From the NCBI GenBank assembly GCA_018903055.1, contig JAHIPW010000098.1, positions 1-5,437 of the forward strand: a stretch of 5,437 nt of DNA, in the 5' to 3' direction. Positions 1-5,437 of this stretch are shown piece after piece (position 1 is the first letter of the stretch; every line of letters begins with the position of its first letter). This DNA comes from DRGV01 sp018903055 [NCBI: bacterium] (GTDB lineage Bacteria > UBP18 > UBA7526). The translations under genes were made by a program, and so were the position numbers. A model generated the notes under the pieces. That model saw only the letters and a program-made list of their open reading frames with translations. It was not told the DNA's origin and did not search any database.

Positions 1-2
1 AG

Positions 3-443
3 GAAAGAATCGACGATGACCTTCTAATCATTGCTGGAGATAACCTCTTCGAATTCGACCTTTCCAGGTTCATTCGATTCTTTCAGGAGAAGAAGGCTCC
101 CTGTATCGCTCTTTATGATATTGGAGATAAAGAGAGGGCCAAGAAGTATGGGGTGGCGACCATAGATGCGAATCAGAGGATCGTTAACTTTAAAGAAAAG
201 CCTTCCTGCCCTGCCTCTACCCTGATCGCCACCTGCTTATATCTCTTTTCCAGGAAAGATTTAAGCCTTATCGCAACCTACCTCAAGGAGAAGAGAAGTT
301 CCGATGCTCCAGGATTCTATATCCAATGGTTAGCTGAGGAAGAAGAGGTTTATGGCTTTGTCTTCAAAGAGAAGTGGTATGATATCGGAAGCCTGGAATC
401 CCTAAAAGAGGCAGATTTAAACTATCGGGAAGTGATACGGTAA
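3..443 (+). CDS. Sugar-1-phosphate nucleotidyltransferase, C-terminal part (5' end outside window)
   Basis: The frame is open from base 3 to the TAA at 441-443, giving 146 residues of a longer protein whose N-terminal nucleotide-binding loop lies before the window. Visible features fit the glucose-1-phosphate thymidylyltransferase/NTP-transferase fold: hydrophobic strand LLIIAGDN with the metal-binding Asp region, then a YDIGD segment, GVATID with NFKEKP (the family's V-EKP substrate loop), an SDAPGFYIQWL helix, and a C-terminal KWYDIGSLESLKEA, the usual W-x-DIG-x-x-E motif. The family joins a sugar-1-phosphate to an NTP to give an NDP-sugar plus pyrophosphate, in the cytoplasm, for cell-envelope polysaccharide. 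The exact sugar and nucleotide cannot be read from this fragment. The internal ATG at 153 is not a plausible start because conserved sequence continues upstream of it. Its stop codon overlaps the left end of the foldback repeat that precedes metK. Confidence 0.88.
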   Translation, partial: ERIDDDLLIIAGDNLFEFDLSRFIRFFQEKKAPCIALYDIGDKERAKKYGVATIDANQRIVNFKEKPSCPASTLIATCLYLFSRKDLSLIATYLKEKRSSDAPGFYIQWLAEEEEVYGFVFKEKWYDIGSLESLKEADLNYREVIR

Positions 444-494
444 TATGAAGAAAGTTACTAGCAGTTACTAAAGGTTACCAACGGTTACCAATGC

Positions 495-512
495 CTGCCT
501 GCCGGCAGGCAG
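495..512. repeat. 18-bp perfect palindrome nested in copy A
   Basis: CTGCCTGCCGGCAGGCAG is identical to its own reverse complement. It lies at the apex of foldback copy A, between the fourth and fifth GTTAC units. Copy B has no equivalent at that place, so it looks like a secondary insertion of a small palindromic repeat. Confidence 0.75.
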
Positions 513-538
513 AGTTACAAAAGCAACCGTTAGTAACA

Positions 539-562
539 ATCCCCCGATAAATATCGAGGGAT
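539..562 (+). repeat. Stem-loop 1 of copy A
   Basis: Bases 539-548 pair with 553-562, with a single C/A mismatch (544/557) and an AAAT loop. It sits between TAGTAAC units at 531 and 564. No T-run follows, so it is not an intrinsic terminator. Confidence 0.7.
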
Positions 563-581
563 GTAGTAACCGATAGTAACA

Positions 582-600
582 GTCCGGTCTTCAGCCGGAC
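582..600 (+). repeat. Stem-loop 2 of copy A
   Basis: GTCCGG (582-587) pairs with CCGGAC (595-600), extended by a T-G wobble (588/594) around a 5-nt loop. It sits between the TAGTAAC units at 574 and 602 and ends about 17 nt before the metK Shine-Dalgarno. If transcribed it could affect access of ribosomes, which is inference. Confidence 0.7.
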
Positions 601-629
601 GTAGTAACATATTATAAGAGGAGATAAGA

Positions 630-1838
630 ATGAAGAGACATCTATTTACTTCAGAGAGTGTGACCGAGGGACATCCAGATAAGATCTGCGATCAGATTTC
701 GGATGCAGTATTAGACGAGATTCTAAGATACGATCTTAGATATCACCTCTCTCCCTATCGTAAAAAAAGAGGGGGTAAGAGAGGAAGCCGGGTGGCCTGT
801 GAGACCTTTGTCACTGTGGGATTGATTGTAGTGGGAGGGGAGATTACTACTAAATGCTATGTCGATCTTCCTCTTCTGGTGCGCAACCTGATTAAAGATA
901 TTGGCTATGTCAGGCCAGAGTTTGGCTTTGAGCATGAGACCTGCGCCATACTGAATGCCATTGGAAGGCAATCCCCCGATATTGCTCTGGGAGTGGATAC
1001 CGGAGGAGCTGGAGATCAGGGTGCTATGTTCGGCTACGCCTGCAAAGAGACCAAAGAACTTATGCCCCTGCCCATTATGCTTGCTCATGGATTGACTAAA
1101 AGGTTAGCCCAGGTGAGAAGGAAGGGGGTCCTGGACTATCTTGGGCCAGATGGGAAGAGCCAGGTCACTGTAGAGTACCAGGATGGCAAGCCGGTTCGTG
1201 TGGATGCTGTGGTTCTCTCTACCCAACATACAGAGAAGATCCTGAATGTTAAGAAGACCCACATAACGGATGAGGCAAAGGAAGAGTTAATCGAGAAGGT
1301 TATAAAGGCAGTCATTCCAGGGAGACTTCTGGATAAGAGGACAAAGTATCTGGTCAATCCCACTGGGAAGTTTCTCACCGGTGGCCCCAAGTCTGATACC
1401 GGAATGACGGGAAGGAAGATCATTGTCGATACCTATGGAGGAAGAGCTTTGCATGGGGGAGGGGCCTTCAGCGGAAAGGACCCCACCAAGGTTGATAGGT
1501 CTGCCTCCTATATGGCAAGATATATCGCCAAGAACCTGGTGGCGGCGGGGATAGCGGATGAATGTTGTGTTCAACTGGCCTATGCCATTGGAGTCAAGGA
1601 TCCGGTCTCGGTCATGATTGACACCTATGGTACAGGAAAGATTAATGAAAAGAGAATCGTGGAGTTGGTGAAGAGGCACTTCTTACTGACCCCAGAGGGG
1701 ATCATCGGGGAGCTCGACCTCTGGCGACCCATCTATAGGAAGACCGCCTGCTATGGCCACATGGGAAGGGAAGAGGAAGGCTTCAGCTGGGAGAAGAGGG
1801 ACAAAGCAGAGACATTGCGCAAAGAAGCTGGACTGTAA
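630..1838 (+). CDS. metK: S-adenosylmethionine synthetase (methionine adenosyltransferase)
   Basis: It makes S-adenosylmethionine from methionine and ATP, releasing phosphate and pyrophosphate; a cytoplasmic, normally tetrameric enzyme using Mg2+ and K+. The whole protein aligns with bacterial Met[16 protein letters not shown] at the N-terminus (GHPDK residues 14-18, ATP/metal site), the glycine-rich [12 protein letters not shown] (126-137), [53 protein letters not shown] (276-291, phosphate-binding loop), and a C-terminal YGHMGRE. At 402 residues it is longer than E. coli MetK (about 384). Most of the excess is a basic insertion at about residues 36-52, partly offset by a shorter loop before GAGDQG. 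The start is fixed by homology and by a GAGGAGAT Shine-Dalgarno just upstream. No SAM riboswitch is recognisable in the leader, which is instead the foldback repeat. Probable first gene of a metK-pfkB-ahcY methyl-cycle block. Confidence 0.97.
723..785 (+). other. Lineage-specific basic insertion in MetK built on inverted repeats
   Basis: Between DAVLDEIL and the conserved RVACE motif, other bacterial MetKs have only a few residues (about 15 fewer than here). The extra stretch, roughly residues 36-52, includes [16 protein letters not shown] and is strongly basic. At DNA level the area holds a perfect 7-bp inverted repeat with a 3-nt loop (723-729 with 733-739) and a second pairing of CCTCTC (746-751) with GAGAGG (779-784). 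The reading frame is kept. This resembles a small palindromic element inserted in frame, but a native loop expansion is also possible. Confidence 0.55.
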
Positions 1839-1876
1839 GCCAGTGAGCCAGTGAGCCAGTGAGCCAGTGAGCCAGT
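1839..1876 (+). repeat. 8-bp tandem repeat (GCCAGTGA), four full units plus a partial
   Basis: It starts immediately after the metK stop codon: full units at 1839, 1847, 1855 and 1863, then GCCAGT to 1876, followed by a short T-run. There is no stable hairpin before the T-run, so it is not a convincing terminator. Copy number of such an array is expected to vary by replication slippage. Confidence 0.85.
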
Positions 1877-1919
1877 TTTTATAACCGGAAAACCGGCTAA
1901 CCAAAAACAAGAGGTAGGA

Positions 1920-2834
1920 ATGAGTGTTCTGGTAGTGGGTTCCGTTGCTTTAGATACTGTAAAGACCCCCTTCAGAGAGGTTAAAGAGACCCTGGGAGGT
2001 AGTGCTACCTACTTTGCCCTGAGCGCCCATCACTATACCCAGGTGAGTATGGTGGCAGTGGTGGGAAGCGACTTTCCCAGAAAGTATTTAGATCACTTTA
2101 AGGGAAAGGGAATCGATATTAGGGGGCTGGAGATAAAGAAGGGTAAGACCTTCCGGTGGAAAGGCTACTATGAGTACGATCTGAATCAGGCCCATACCCA
2201 GAGGACCGAGCTGAACGTCTTCCGCACCTTTCGCCCCAAGATACCGGAAGAATATAACAAAATAGAATATCTTTTTTTAGCCAATATCGATCCCCAATTA
2301 CAGCTTTCTGTCTTGAGGCAGGTCAGGAAGCCCAAGCTCGTTCTCTGCGATACCATGAACTACTGGATTGAGAAGAAGAGGAAAGAACTACTCCTTACTC
2401 TGAAAGGGGTAGACATTCTTCTCTTAAATGACTCAGAGGCCAGGGAGTTGACCGGAGAGCATAACCTCTTCAAGGCCTCGCGCCGGGTACTGAAGATGGG
2501 TCCAGAGAAGGTAATCATAAAGAAGGGGGAGCATGGGGCTCTGATGTGGAGTAAGAATTCCCATTTCGCTGTTCCCGGATACCCTTTAGAGGACATCAAT
2601 GATCCCACTGGTGCTGGAGATAGCTTTGCCGGAGGATTCTTGGGATTCCTGGCCTATACCAATGACTTGAGTGAGGAAAATATGAGGAAGGCCATGATCT
2701 ATGGGAGCATTATGGCCTCCTATAATGTGGAGGATTTCAGTGTAAAAAGACTTGAAAGATTAAAGGATAAGGAGATTATCGAAAGGTATCGGGAGTTTAA
2801 GAGAATGACCCATTTTGAGGACCTAAGTGAGTGA
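1920..2834 (+). CDS. PfkB/ribokinase-family kinase, possible nucleoside kinase of the methyl cycle
   Basis: A 304-residue cytoplasmic ATP-dependent kinase of the ribokinase/PfkB superfamily. Seen in sequence: N-terminal VLVVGSVALDTV with the substrate-contacting Asp12, a GG pair (26-27) in LGGSATYFA, the VGSDFP strand, a central LLLNDSEARELTGE segment, VIIKKGEHGALM, and the C-terminal signature DPTGAGDSFAGGF with catalytic base Asp234 and the anion-hole glycines. The length is typical. The substrate is not shown by the sequence. Its place between metK and ahcY suggests it phosphorylates adenosine (or inosine) released by AhcY, pulling that reversible reaction forward; this is inference from context. 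The GGSATYF pattern differs from the GG-N motif of well-studied adenosine kinases, so a sugar or other nucleoside substrate remains possible. The start is supported by GAGGT at 1911-1915, though its spacing is rather short. Confidence 0.85.
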   Translation: MSVLVVGSVALDTVKTPFREVKETLGGSATYFALSAHHYTQVSMVAVVGSDFPRKYLDHFKGKGIDIRGLEIKKGKTFRWKGYYEYDLNQAHTQRTELNVFRTFRPKIPEEYNKIEYLFLANIDPQLQLSVLRQVRKPKLVLCDTMNYWIEKKRKELLLTLKGVDILLLNDSEARELTGEHNLFKASRRVLKMGPEKVIIKKGEHGALMWSKNSHFAVPGYPLEDINDPTGAGDSFAGGFLGFLAYTNDLSEENMRKAMIYGSIMASYNVEDFSVKRLERLKDKEIIERYREFKRMTHFEDLSE

Positions 2835-2932
2835 TGCAGTAATATGAAAAAGGTTACGAACCGTTACTAATTGGTTACTAAACAGTTACTAACAGTTACC
2901 AGTGATTAAGGTAAAAGTAACCGTTAGTAACA

Positions 2933-2950
2933 GTCCGACTTTAGTCGGAT
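2933..2950 (+). repeat. Stem-loop 1 of copy B
   Basis: Bases 2933-2939 pair with 2944-2950 (six Watson-Crick pairs plus a terminal G-T) around a TTTA loop. It occupies the same slot between TAGTAAC units as the 539-562 stem in copy A but with a different stem sequence. Confidence 0.7.
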
Positions 2951-2969
2951 GTAGTAACCGATAGTAACA

Positions 2970-2987
2970 GTCTGGCTTTTGCCAGAC
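2970..2987 (+). repeat. Stem-loop 2 of copy B
   Basis: GTCTGGC (2970-2976) pairs perfectly with GCCAGAC (2981-2987) around a TTTT loop. It matches the position of the 582-600 stem in copy A, with several base pairs changed on both sides of the stem. Confidence 0.72.
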
Positions 2988-3018
2988 GTAGTAACATATT
3001 ATACGGGGAGGTTGTAGA

Positions 3019-4272
3019 ATGAAATACCATATTAAGGACATTAAGTTAGCAGATAAAGGAAAGAAGCGTATCGAGTGGGCCGCGGGGGAGATGCCGGTCT
3101 TGAATCTCATTAGAGACGAGTTCAGAAAGAAGAAGCCCCTGAAGGGCTTGAAAATCTCTGCCTGCTTACATGTGACGAGTGAAACCGCGGTTTTGATGCA
3201 GACCCTGAAAGCCGGAGGAGCAACCCCTTATCTCTGTGCTTCTAACCCCCTCTCTACCCAGGATGATGTAGCCGCTTCCTTAGTTAAACACGATGGAATC
3301 GGTGTCTTTGCCATTCGGGGAGAGAATAACAAGATCTATTATCATCATATTAAAAGCGTTCTAAATATCAAACCTCAGATTACTATGGATGACGGAGCTG
3401 ATCTCGTTGCTACCGTTCTCCGTTCACCGTTCACCGTTCACCGTGGTATTATTGGAGGAACGGAGGAGACGACTACCGGAGTAATTAGATTAAGGAGTAT
3501 GGCAAATAAGGGGATATTGAGATATCCCATCATCGCCGTAAATGATGCTCAGACAAAGCATTTCTTCGATAATAGGTATGGGACGGGACAGTCAACCATA
3601 GATGGTATACTGCGGGCAACGAATAGACTCTTGGCAGGCAGCAACTTTGTGGTCTGTGGTTATGGCTGGTGCGGAAGGGGAATCGCCATGAGAGCCAGAG
3701 GGATGGGGGCCAGGGTAATCGTCACTGAAGTAGATTCCTTAAAAGCCCTGGAGGCCTCTATGGATGGCTATCAGGTGATGCCCCTGAACGAAGCGGCGAG
3801 AGTCGGGGATATTTTCGTTACTGCAAGTGGAGATATAGGCCTCATTGATAAAAGACACTTCCGGGCAATGAGGGACGGGGCAATCGTTGCCAATGCTGGT
3901 CACTTCAATGTTGAGATAAATATCCCTGCCTTAGAAAGAATGGCCAAAAAGAAGAGAAGTATAAGGGGAGCGATCGATCAATATATCCTTCCCGGGGGAA
4001 AGAGGATCAATCTCTTAGGGGAAGGAAGACTGGTAAACTTAGCTTGTGCCGAGGGGCATCCTCCCACAGTAATGGATATGTCCTTTGCCAATCAGGCTTT
4101 GTCTGTTGAATATCTGGTAAAGAAGAAGGCTCTAAAGAAGAAGGTATACCCTGTTCCTTCCCAGATAGATAAAAGGATTGCCCGGTTGAAACTCAAATCC
4201 TTAGGGATAAGGATAGATAGATTGACCAAAGAACAAGAGAGATATCTTAAGTCCTGGGAATTAGGCACTTAA
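3019..4272 (+). CDS. ahcY: S-adenosylhomocysteine hydrolase, short archaeal/Thermotoga-like type
   Basis: NAD-dependent, reversible cleavage of S-adenosylhomocysteine to homocysteine and adenosine, clearing the product inhibitor of methyltransferases. The 417-residue protein carries CLHVTSETA (His51), [18 protein letters not shown] (Asp124/125), GGTEETTTG (Glu149/150), [11 protein letters not shown] (Lys180 and Asp184, matching human Lys186/Asp190), GTGQST, the NAD loop GYGWCGRG (214-221), [14 protein letters not shown], and [14 protein letters not shown]. It ends in YLKSWELGT, lacking the longer C-terminal tail and the roughly 40-residue insertion of many bacterial and eukaryotic enzymes. 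Members of this short type in Methanocaldococcus act on S-inosylhomocysteine, so that substrate cannot be excluded. The usual LHTK-like segment after DDGADL is replaced by residues encoded by a 7-bp tandem repeat. The start is set by homology and by GGGGAGGT at 3005-3012. Foldback copy B precedes it. Confidence 0.95.
3414..3444 (+). repeat. 7-bp tandem repeat (CGTTCAC) inside ahcY
   Basis: CGTTCTC at 3414, then three exact CGTTCAC units at 3421, 3428 and 3435, followed by CGT. Three units equal 21 bp, so the frame cycles through all three phases and returns, encoding [11 protein letters not shown] (residues 133-143). It lies between catalytic Asp124/125 and Glu149/150, where relatives carry an unrelated LHTK-type helix. 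Length to the next motif is within about one residue of that in relatives. Confidence 0.85.
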
Positions 4273-4274
4273 GG

Positions 4275-4359
4275 AGATGTCGGATTTCAGTCTTCAGATC
4301 TCAGATTGCCGATAAAATCTGCAATAATTTACTGCAAAACAAACTGATATCTGACATCT
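4275..4359. repeat. 17-bp imperfect inverted repeat downstream of ahcY
   Basis: Bases 4275-4291 pair with 4343-4359 with one G-T wobble and one mismatch, enclosing about 51 nt that contain further CAGAT/ATCTG words. No T-run follows the right arm, so it is not an intrinsic terminator. It could be a 3'-end-stabilising structure or a remnant of a dispersed repeat. The rest of the 4273-4416 spacer shows no gene. Confidence 0.6.
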
Positions 4360-4400
4360 GCTCTGCGTTTCTGTGTTAAATTCTGCATTTCGGCGATTAC

Positions 4401-4449
4401 AAAGGAGGGAAAGAGAATGAACCCCGTTAGAGATACTAAAAGATATTGA
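4401..4449 (+). pseudogene. Orphaned original start (Shine-Dalgarno plus ATG) of the lipoprotein gene
   Basis: AAAGGAGG at 4401-4408 is an excellent Shine-Dalgarno 8 nt before ATG 4417-4419. The frame gives only MNPVRDTKRY and stops at TGA 4447-4449. The ATGAA is followed at once by the left terminal repeat of the 148-bp element. Removing the element plus one TGAA copy (4422-4573) rejoins this ATG to AAAAGAATC at 4573 onward and yields a standard lipoprotein signal peptide beginning MKRIIILVG and ending LLAGC. The signals may still be used to translate the 10-residue leader peptide, which would end 41 nt before the ATG now in use. Confidence 0.75.
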
Positions 4450-4569
4450 TGGATATAAATAAAAAAATGAGAAGGATAAAGGAGGTTCAAATGAAGGTAA
4501 TAAATAGTTACGGTCGCCTTAGGCGATCTATCCCATACGACAAGCCTACGGGACAAGTCTCTAACGGGG
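4422..4569. mobile_element. 148-bp MITE-like element with 12-bp terminal inverted repeats
   Basis: The ends are exact inverted repeats: CCCCGTTAGAGA (4422-4433) and TCTCTAACGGGG (4558-4569). Both flanks carry TGAA (4418-4421 and 4570-4573), consistent with a 4-bp target duplication. It has no room for a transposase, so it would have to be mobilised in trans. Inside are an A/T-rich left half, a Shine-Dalgarno with ATG (4478-4493), and a 7-bp hairpin with a TTA loop (4512-4528, one G-T pair). Its ends read in translation as NPVRD and SNGV; from memory, peptide ends of this type recur in predicted proteins of uncultivated bacterial lineages, suggesting a dispersed family, not verified here. Confidence 0.72.
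4478..4493 (+). promoter_or_regulatory. Shine-Dalgarno and ATG carried by the inserted element
   Basis: AAAGGAGG (4478-4485) lies 5 nt before ATG 4491-4493. It is the only well-placed ribosome binding site in frame with the lipoprotein. The alternative in-frame GTG at 4569, formed by the last G of the element plus TG of the flank, aligns with the original start but has no convincing Shine-Dalgarno. Confidence 0.75.
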
Positions 4570-5437
4570 TGAAAAGAATCATTATCTTAGTGGGGATTTT
4601 AGCTCTGGGTCTCACTCTTCTGGCAGGATGTCGCCAGCGACCGGAGGAAGTGGAACTGGGGAAGAAGGAGTTGGTCCCCCTTGAGGAAATGGTCCCCTTA
4701 GAAGAGATGGCTCCCCCAGAGGAAATGGCTGAGGCCGCTCCCACTGTAGTTCCCGCCGCAGGCATTACCTCCGTCAATAGCATCACTCAGGCCTCCGTTG
4801 GCCAGAGGGCAATCCTCCAAGCAACGATAACCTCTGTCCGGATTTTTAGTGAAGCGAAGGGAAGAACCCTGAAGATAAGTGATGGAACGGGAAGCATAGA
4901 TGTCGTAATCTGGAAAGATCTCTACAACCAGATACCCCAGAGAGATTCTCTTGTTAAAGGAGTAAGGATTCAGGTCTCGGGAGAGATCGGGAGTTACCGG
5001 GAGAACCTCCAGATAAAACCAAAAAGCCCAGGGGATATTCAGATATTAGGAGCTGCTCCAGCTGCCCTTCCAGCCGTTGCTCCATTAACTCCAGTAACCC
5101 AGGTGCCGATAGAGGAGAAAGTTGTTGCCCCTCCTCCCCAGGTGACAGCAAAGCCGGAGCTTAAGAAAGTGGATACTGATGGGGATGGGATTCCCGATAC
5201 CTTCGCCATGGTAGGAACCACGGCCGCTCCGGCCATTGCTCCCGCCGCAGCACCTAGGGCACCTGCGATGCGGAAGATCCCTGTCCGGACAACCCCGATA
5301 TCGAGCATCACCCAGGCCTCAGTTGGTCAGTGGGAGACCCTAAAAGGCACCATAACCAGTGTCTATGTCTTTAAGGAGGCCAAGGGTCGTACCTTAAAGA
5401 TAAGTGATGGAACGGGAAGCATAGATGTCGTAATCTG
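4491..5437 (+). CDS. Lipoprotein with repeated OB-fold domains (3' end outside window)
   Basis: The frame is open from ATG 4491 to the window end: 315 codons, no stop. Residues 1-26 are encoded by the inserted element. Residues 27-47 (VKRIIILV...LLAGC) form a classic lipoprotein signal with lipobox Cys47, so the mature protein should be lipid-anchored outside the cytoplasmic membrane. A Glu/Pro-rich linker follows with three hexapeptides (PLEEMV, PLEEMA, PPEEMA; 63-80). Residues about 92-186 fit the bacterial OB-fold nucleic-acid-binding type (ITSV, RTLKISDGTGSIDVVIW, GVRIQVSGEIGSY, LQIKP). A Pro/Ala linker contains DTDGDGIPD (228-236), resembling a thrombospondin type-3 calcium motif. A second OB domain starts near 270 and is cut off. 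Repeat period is 175 residues. Ligand unknown; OB folds outside the cytoplasm need not bind nucleic acid. The true start may differ, since the long N-terminal extension before the signal is unusual. Confidence 0.85.
   Translation, partial: MKVINSYGRLRRSIPYDKPTGQVSNGVKRIIILVGILALGLTLLAGCRQRPEEVELGKKELVPLEEMVPLEEMAPPEEMAEAAPTVVPAAGITSVNSITQASVGQRAILQATITSVRIFSEAKGRTLKISDGTGSIDVVIWKDLYNQIPQRDSLVKGVRIQVSGEIGSYRENLQIKPKSPGDIQILGAAPAALPAVAPLTPVTQVPIEEKVVAPPPQVTAKPELKKVDTDGDGIPDTFAMVGTTAAPAIAPAAAPRAPAMRKIPVRTTPISSITQASVGQWETLKGTITSVYVFKEAKGRTLKISDGTGSIDVVI
4872..4912 (+). repeat. 41-bp exact direct repeat, copy 1 (in OB domain 1)
   Basis: This encodes KISDGTGSIDVVIW and is identical base for base to 5397-5437, 525 bp (175 codons) downstream. 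Flanking domain sequence is similar but diverged, so the core is either recently duplicated or homogenised. Confidence 0.9.
5397..5437 (+). repeat. 41-bp exact direct repeat, copy 2 (in OB domain 2, at the window end)
   Basis: Identical to 4872-4912. The window ends inside it, so how far the identity runs cannot be seen. Confidence 0.9.

Follow-up and report, generated by a model that had tools for sequence, protein, structure and literature searches.

The window analysed here, positions 1 to 5,437 of contig JAHIPW010000098.1, contains a 148-bp element bounded by inverted repeats (4422-4569) at the start of a lipoprotein gene. The element is probably a non-autonomous copy of a minimal inverted-repeat element that is driven by a GIY-YIG nuclease. 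This assignment is drawn from sequence comparison, which covers the ends of the element, the duplications beside them, empty sites elsewhere, gene content, selection and the classes of insertion site. The GIY-YIG protein would be the mobility enzyme that opens the target; this role, and likewise the route by which the element is copied, we infer from the comparison.

A repeat search of the window returned a perfect 13-bp inverted pair (4421-4433 and 4558-4570). The 12-bp ends at 4422-4433 and 4558-4569 are the right reading, because the A/T pair at the outer edge is part of the TGAA copies on either side, and the search bears out the exact inverted ends given in the initial annotation of this DNA. 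The TGAA which that annotation placed on both outer flanks is likewise present. The features of the element and of the interrupted gene are the following.

4401 to 4408, plus strand: Shine-Dalgarno sequence AAAGGAGG of the ancestral lipoprotein gene, preceding ATG 4417 (sequence)
4417 to 4419, plus strand: ancestral start ATG, which now opens MNPVRDTKRY* alone (sequence, translation)
4418 to 4421, plus strand: left TGAA copy of the 4-bp target-site duplication (sequence); TGAA/TTCA is the second commonest duplication of the family (10/76)
4422 to 4433, plus strand: left terminal inverted repeat CCCCGTTAGAGA (repeat search)
4422 to 4569, no strand assigned: whole 148-bp element, probably a non-autonomous copy (inverted ends; covariance model, 35.5 bits, E 3e-8)
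4434 to 4511, plus strand: 78-nt segment corresponding in position and length to the first ~25 GIY-YIG codons of full-length relatives (class mostly 74-81 nt)
4478 to 4485, plus strand: internal Shine-Dalgarno sequence AAAGGAGG (sequence)
4491 to 4493, plus strand: internal ATG, in frame with the lipoprotein across the right end, proposed as the present start (sequence, list of open reading frames)
4491 to 5437, plus strand: target gene as now read, a lipoprotein (..LLAGC) with an OB-fold domain, open at the end of the window (Pfam PF01336, E 6.5e-12)
4512 to 4528, no strand assigned: 17-nt hairpin GGTCGCC-TTA-GGCGATC with one G-T pair, located where the class has a covarying hairpin (folding)
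4531 to 4553, no strand assigned: second, weaker 23-nt hairpin TCCCATACGACAAGCCTACGGGA (folding), its 23 letters identical in the Elusimicrobia element at locus L338
4558 to 4569, plus strand: right terminal inverted repeat TCTCTAACGGGG (repeat search)
4569 to 4571, plus strand: GTG formed by the last base of the element and the right TGAA, a possible fallback start (sequence)
4570 to 4573, plus strand: right TGAA copy of the target duplication (sequence)

Joining the flanks (1..4421 to 4574 onward) gives MKRIIILVGILALGLTLLAGCRQR, in which the Shine-Dalgarno sequence, the ATG and the signal peptide are restored, and the joined reading is MKRIIILVGILALGLTLLAGC; removal of the element therefore yields the lipoprotein start that had been predicted. 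The element apparently inserted precisely at the lipoprotein start codon and brought its own replacement start. The frame from ATG 4491, where translation of the lipoprotein would now begin, reads MKVINSYGRLRRSIPYDKPTGQVSNG and then VKRIII... through the right end, adding 26 residues. The earlier description of a split start codon region is right as to insertion at the start codon and incomplete in that the element supplies a new Shine-Dalgarno sequence and ATG, the source of the 26-residue extension.

With its perfect 12-bp terminal inverted repeats, TGAA target duplication and small size, the element has several properties of a miniature inverted-repeat transposable element (MITE). At 148 bp it is too short for a known transposase; the open reading frames overlapping it are mechanical, and the lipoprotein frame alone was searched against families. 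The stretch 4400-4600 folds with z = -2.9 relative to shuffled sequences, and an Rfam search of the window found no family at the gathering cut-off. The ends alone account for ~32 bits of the score under the covariance model, which was built from 56 relatives. As the inner region adds ~3 bits, the inner hairpin region alone was dropped as proof of membership, which was rested instead on the ends, the duplication, the length, the hairpin position and the shared 23-mer. The 23 letters of 4531-4553 recur exactly in one element of the Elusimicrobia genome G385 and nowhere else among 294 Elusimicrobiota genomes searched at up to one mismatch.

A single copy of the element is present in the 5.4-kb window, and many copies are found in other genomes. 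The 12-letter end occurs in five of nine genomes reached via relatives of sahH, and one Omnitrophota genome contains 25 matches, many of them in facing pairs, against 2 for the reversed pattern. The 124-154-bp pattern of paired ends is present in 17 of 193 Omnitrophota genomes (control matches, 0), and single ends in six rich genomes number from 9 and 7 up to 45 and 39 per direction (control, 0-2). Among 43 further genomes, 10 had any match and two a clear excess: G385, with 85 ends (about 40 copies; control, 0) and the highest count per genome, and the Thermodesulfovibrionales genome G364, with 14 ends (control, 0). A deltaproteobacterial genome showed a weak excess (5 ends against 1 in the control), and the remainder of this set had 0-2 matches with controls of 0-4. 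At 14-85 per rich genome against 0-2 for the reversed pattern, the ends are a family beyond chance; since the matches are confined to scattered genomes of several phyla, the family is patchy and crosses phyla. A viral or plasmid origin was considered and dropped: exact-pattern scans of viral contigs gave 0 matches, and blastn against plasmids and phages gave short matches alone, with 12-18% query coverage in the AT-rich part of the query.

Evidence of movement comes from duplications, identical copies and empty sites. A first set of loci, mostly from Omnitrophota, holds 128 unique paired copies of 25-320 bp (window included), of which 76 have an exact 4-bp duplication: 44 TAAA/TTTA and 10 TGAA/TTCA. 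In G385, the duplication is exact in 35 of 40 copies, and two sets of three identical 110-bp copies have different flanks. Three copies lie in one operon of genome G192, where three genes in succession (glycosyltransferase, HAD hydrolase and MGDG synthase-like) each have one exactly at the start codon. With a slash at the junction, these sites read ATG/AA twice and GTG/AA once; two are flanked by exact TGAA copies, and at the third GTGAA precedes the element and CAAG follows it. In the relative G202, the three genes are present (about 70-75% nucleotide identity) and each of the sites is empty. This operon stretch had any match in 20 of the 39 genomes searched (G192 included), and G202 and G169 were compared with it; in G169, the neighbourhood of the orthologs is rearranged. 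Other copies of the 12-bp ends with duplicated flanks, for which the initial annotation had proposed a search of the host genome, are thus found in other bacteria, and the insertion that it had inferred is borne out by the duplications and empty sites of the family. The observations support the view that a small inverted-repeat element inserted at the lipoprotein start codon with a TGAA duplication, and the comparison shows the family to be mobile.

A GIY-YIG protein is encoded in copies of 270-390 bp that share these ends (L182, L199 and L236). Against Pfam PF01541 (cut-off, 22.6 bits), the L199 frame scores 62.4 bits (E 4.9e-17) and the L236 frame 57.4 bits (E 1.8e-15); a 25-residue piece from L113 scores 19.7 bits, below the cut-off. 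A search with the GIY-YIG protein revealed relatives in 20 of 21 genomes and returned 30 loci, 29 of which were examined. Inverted repeats (score at least 12) bound the gene at 15 of the 29; ten of these have CCCCGTTA-type ends and L244 has an TCCCGTTAGA end. At L243, L246 and L252, the GIY-YIG gene is situated between other end sequences, which lack exact duplications; the repeat at L253 sits in a repeat-rich stretch and was not relied upon. Ends 235-265 nt apart were found at 18 places in 13 of 315 Omnitrophota genomes (control, 0). Translation of 16 of the 18, all distinct elements of ~280 bp, gave a GIY-YIG match in 13; in one more (L385) the gene is recognised by eye in frameshifted form, and exact 4-bp duplications flank 8 of the 16.

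Among ten GIY-YIG genes (45 pairs), the proportion of nonsynonymous differences (pN) is 0.08-0.28 and that of synonymous differences (pS) 0.63-1.0. The ratio of the corresponding rates (dN/dS) is 0.03-0.19 in the 13 of 45 pairs for which it is computable; these values are rough, as all have pS of at least 0.63 and synonymous sites are near saturation. Pairs with pS of at least 0.74 yield no ratio, and an earlier set of pairs was saturated. On this rough measure, the gene is under purifying selection. The Y.Y, Y.G, KR, H, RE and NR positions, which we take to be catalytic, are alike across the ten compared proteins, for which nuclease activity is predicted. The GIY-YIG frame exits via the right end (..KRFLSLTG), and its stop is often, though not always, a TAA or TGA just outside.

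The full-length genes also point to the origin of the short copies. In 8 of 14 full-length genes tested, an internal inverted repeat of 10-15 bp lies between the ..RKRF.. and the final ..KRFL.. codons; the six genes without it are L245, with the main ends, and L243, L244, L246, L247 and L252, with other ends. In the ~122-bp copies, the arms of the repeat stand side by side as a hairpin adjoining one end, and mostly 74-81 nt separate this hairpin from the opposite end. In the full-length form, the gene start and the first arm are about equally far apart. The alignment of 56 copies shows compensatory changes at all 7 of 7 hairpin pairs, with 98% of cells pairing; the end pairs were fixed by the search pattern and are uninformative, and the window is not among the aligned sequences. 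The window copy has the class length of 78 nt and a hairpin in the class position (4512-4528), together with the extra hairpin at 4531-4553. The ~122-bp copies are read as internal-deletion derivatives of the GIY-YIG element, and the window copy probably is one too; its inner part would then descend from the GIY-YIG gene. A captured, spacer-like host fragment had been considered for the inner part of constant length and was dropped, as full-length copies show the start of the GIY-YIG gene there.

Several further arrangements of GIY-YIG genes were observed. L240 is a copy with a stop near its start. In L236 (genome G091, 3773-4160), a shorter element with similar ends, bordered by TTTA and TAAA, sits inside a GIY-YIG element as a nested insertion. 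In genome G024 (L241/L387), a GIY-YIG element at 1480-1758 of L241 is situated near the beginning of a formyl-transferase (purN-like) gene, which is rebuilt by a second start of different coding, MKRLAFLVSGNGTNM (Pfam Formyl_trans_N), further downstream. Eight lone GIY-YIG genes, chosen by eye from the 14 without bounding inverted repeats (L248, L250, L255, L259, L260, L261, L262 and L265), are followed immediately by a tRNA gene in the same orientation; at L260 and L261, part of the tRNA sequence is also found, by eye, across the other side of the nuclease gene. These genes possibly represent a second, tRNA-directed mode of GIY-YIG mobility.

Insertion sites were classed for the 74 first-set copies with exact duplications and enough flank and compared with 5502 control TRAR sites, some of the targets being not strictly TRAR. 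The insertion point coincides exactly with the stop codon of a frame of 80 or more codons in 16/74 against 130/5502 (odds ratio 11, p 4e-11), with an ATG/AA start in 11/74 against 112/5502 (odds ratio 8.4, p 5e-7), and with a G/FTL.E prepilin-like site in 9/74 against 10/5502 (odds ratio 76, p 6e-13). Inspection by eye gave nine such prepilin-like sites among 16 pattern matches from 281 ends. The downstream protein matches a Pfam pseudopilin family above the cut-off at four of them (T2SSG at three, GspH at one); the other five are below it, with three weak matches, one of them to an unrelated family, the protein pieces having begun after the Gly, which cuts the N-methylation motif. Among start-codon copies of 60-200 bp, an in-frame ATG is open to the junction in 10 of 10, against 25 of 200 other element strands, so the window fits a pattern in which start-codon survivors carry their own start.

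The following mechanism would accommodate these observations. The full-length form, putatively autonomous, measures ~270-310 bp, with main-type terminal inverted repeats starting CCCCGTTAGA and one gene, whose frame crosses the right repeat and which codes for a lone GIY-YIG nuclease domain of ~85 residues. Deletion between the arms of the internal inverted repeat, which adjoins the right repeat, would produce the common ~122-bp form, ordered as end, ~78 nt of gene start, hairpin and end, a plan that the window copy shares apart from its second hairpin. The nuclease, acting in cis or supplied by another copy, would open a TRAR-like target (TAAA, TGAA etc.) with a 4-nt stagger; a copy of the element would be joined in, and filling of the gaps would create the 4-bp duplication. 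Many insertions would be nearly neutral, because the target resembles a stop codon or the letters ATGAA and the right end reads LTG or SNG-V outward: a stop would be rebuilt, a start replaced, or the element would come to lie just before a prepilin-like cleavage site. In the window, the element would have entered the ATG/AA of the lipoprotein gene, which would since be read from the internal ATG. In our judgement, the case is evenly balanced for a wider proposal, namely that these elements form a new class of minimal DNA transposon: an autonomous unit of ~280 bp, with the ~85-residue GIY-YIG nuclease as sole protein, would carry out its own 4-bp-duplicating insertion at codon-like TRAR targets (stop, ATG/AA, prepilin-like G/FT) that leaves the host gene working, and the nested, codon-written inverted repeat beside the terminal repeat would be both the recognition structure and the source of the ~122-bp derivatives.

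A number of observations weigh against this interpretation. In the window itself, the two ends contribute nearly all of the model score, which is 35.5 bits on one strand and 32.2 bits on the opposite strand, and the 78-nt segment is not recognisable as GIY-YIG protein. The search for an empty site proposed in the initial annotation matched no lipoprotein ortholog or empty site in 334 Omnitrophota genomes, the search being run without a positive control. That annotation had also named the pattern that would contradict insertion, orthologs keeping the extension without the terminal repeats; this was seen once, at another gene. At L288 of G169 (~2613, minus strand), the first G192 gene has an ortholog that begins with MPDKNTTNKISNTAKCDI and lacks end repeats; this start resembles the element-derived MDISHKNKVNQISNGVKCDI of G192. 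Because the G202 ortholog starts MNCDI, the G169 extension is taken for an older copy whose ends have decayed and whose start has been kept, perhaps domesticated; alternatively, an extension of this type could predate the element. As for the family, 14 of the 29 GIY-YIG genes lack bounding inverted repeats, two of the 16 translated elements (L378, 269 bp; L390, 283 bp) have the same ends and full size and no GIY-YIG gene, and genome G190, with 26 ends per direction, gave no GIY-YIG match to the protein query. In genomes G113 and G180 (L381/L382), a full-length element is found at one shared position, in the last codons of pgk just ahead of tpiA (tpiA identified by Pfam, pgk by eye), with a nuclease dN/dS of 0.03; this looks more like long retention, homing or host use than free transposition. 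Of the 10 start-codon copies (window included), seven come from G192, and six of these belong to one subfamily. The start-codon and prepilin classes are at 0/33 each in G385, where stop codons are mildly enriched (6/33, p 0.026); the enrichment differs between genomes, and the site preference may reflect selection for survivors.

Among other explanations, it is possible, if unlikely, that an unseen DDE-type transposase acts in trans on elements that are ordinary MITEs, the GIY-YIG gene being a passenger in some copies. Ends of 12 bp with a 4-bp duplication are typical of DDE transposons, and the many copies in G190 and the two full-size elements lacking the gene would be expected if the gene were a passenger. 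Against it, no conventional transposase was seen by eye in translated spans of 160-900 bp, where no profile search was made and longer spans were not searched. GIY-YIG is, moreover, the gene present in 13 of 16 elements of the ~280-bp class, it recurs between the other ends of L243, L246 and L252, and the internal repeat within it corresponds to the hairpin of the short copies.

Free-standing homing-type elements, in which the GIY-YIG nuclease cuts the empty allele, repair copies from the occupied homologous allele and jumps elsewhere are rare, offer a rather improbable account. The shared pgk-end site of G113 and G180 with its low dN/dS, and the purN-like locus of L241/L387 with its second, differently coded start, would suit homing, and GIY-YIG is the nuclease of known homing endonucleases according to PMC1564403. 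Free-standing homing genes resemble the present elements in having a GIY-YIG nuclease as the gene of a mobile unit. Homing, however, propagates between like alleles, whereas up to 85 ends are present here in a single genome, where fresh duplications occur and identical copies have different flanks. The seg genes of phage T4 are free-standing GIY-YIG homing endonuclease genes. To our knowledge, homing genes lack terminal inverted repeats and 4-bp duplications at scattered sites, both of which are present here.

That the elements are structured regulatory or coding RNA kept for host benefit and mobile in appearance only is very improbable: the compensatory changes in the hairpin and same-site retention in two species agree with it, whereas the empty sites, the duplications, the identical copies with different flanks and the lack of an Rfam family in the window do not. 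For the window alone, a chance inverted repeat within a long-standing lipoprotein leader is scarcely credible, for although the empty site of the lipoprotein was not found and in G169 a relative of another affected gene has retained an extension that lacks repeats, the exact ends are identical to those of a mobile family and are accompanied by the TGAA duplication, the class hairpin position, the 23-mer shared with a G385 element and the Shine-Dalgarno, ATG and signal peptide restored by joining.

The window copy is MITE-like and of an already known kind; its parent may be a new class. MITEs are deletion derivatives of larger elements. The elements share with them short length, terminal inverted repeats, target duplications, high copy number and folding; the ~270-310-bp GIY-YIG copies with common ends may be their autonomous relative. 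They differ in that the apparent parent encodes a lone GIY-YIG nuclease rather than a DDE or HUH transposase, and in that the target frequently has the form of a stop or start codon; the term GIY-YIG is absent from the main text of the review consulted for this comparison. Penelope-like retroelements, which are eukaryotic and have a reverse transcriptase, also use a GIY-YIG endonuclease for insertion. The protein itself is similar to UPF0213 and other single-domain GIY-YIG proteins (PDB 1zg2, BH0048; E 4.6e-8), with the same minimal domain. Rickettsia palindromic elements are, according to PMC2229807 and PMC10969869, palindromic sequences of 100-150 bp that lie in frame in unrelated protein genes and are tolerated by the host. 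The likeness is one of behaviour, known from those descriptions: both are short palindromic elements tolerated in frame. Theirs are described in coding sequences and RNA genes, whereas those considered here lie at start and stop codons and prepilin-like sites, with 4-bp duplications and a nuclease-coding relative. In the literature searched, no bacterial element combining a lone GIY-YIG gene with inverted ends and 4-bp duplications was found; the partial coverage makes this weak evidence of absence. The ends or peptides as text strings returned nothing relevant among the papers listed, and no paper was found for MITE together with Omnitrophota.

The plus strand of the window carries the end of an NTP-transferase gene, metK, a pfkB-family kinase gene, sahH and the OB-fold lipoprotein gene, which runs off the end. 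The order NTP-transferase, metK, sahH is common to several Omnitrophota and to the NPL-UPA2 locus L043. For SahH, the best among the matches listed is at 70%, and relatives are spread over many phyla. When window positions 600-5437 were compared with 198 Elusimicrobiota genomes, the matches listed were at 63-73% and nearly all within metK and sahH. We also note, by eye, other repeats in the window. The intergenic stretches 440-610 and 2840-3000 have repeated GTTACTAAC-like units and small hairpins (AGTCCGG..CCGGACGTAGTAAC) of a different repeat family; a tandem repeat GAGCCAGT (1838-1876) lies directly 3' of the metK stop codon; and an in-frame run of TTCACCG repeats (RSPFTVHRG) at 3418-3450 within the conserved sahH is seemingly a short repeat.

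Should mobility indeed depend on the lone GIY-YIG protein, this enzyme would differ from the classes of mobility enzyme known to us for bacterial inverted-repeat elements. The elements would then be among the smallest self-coding mobile units known to us, and a very small candidate tool for DNA insertion. Extensions such as MNPVRN... and ..ISNGVK.. are frequent in metagenome proteins; even otherwise, the family explains such odd N-terminal extensions, which mislead gene start calls. It also provides a natural experiment on the survival of selfish DNA in compact genomes, at stop codons, start codons and prepilin-like cleavage sites.

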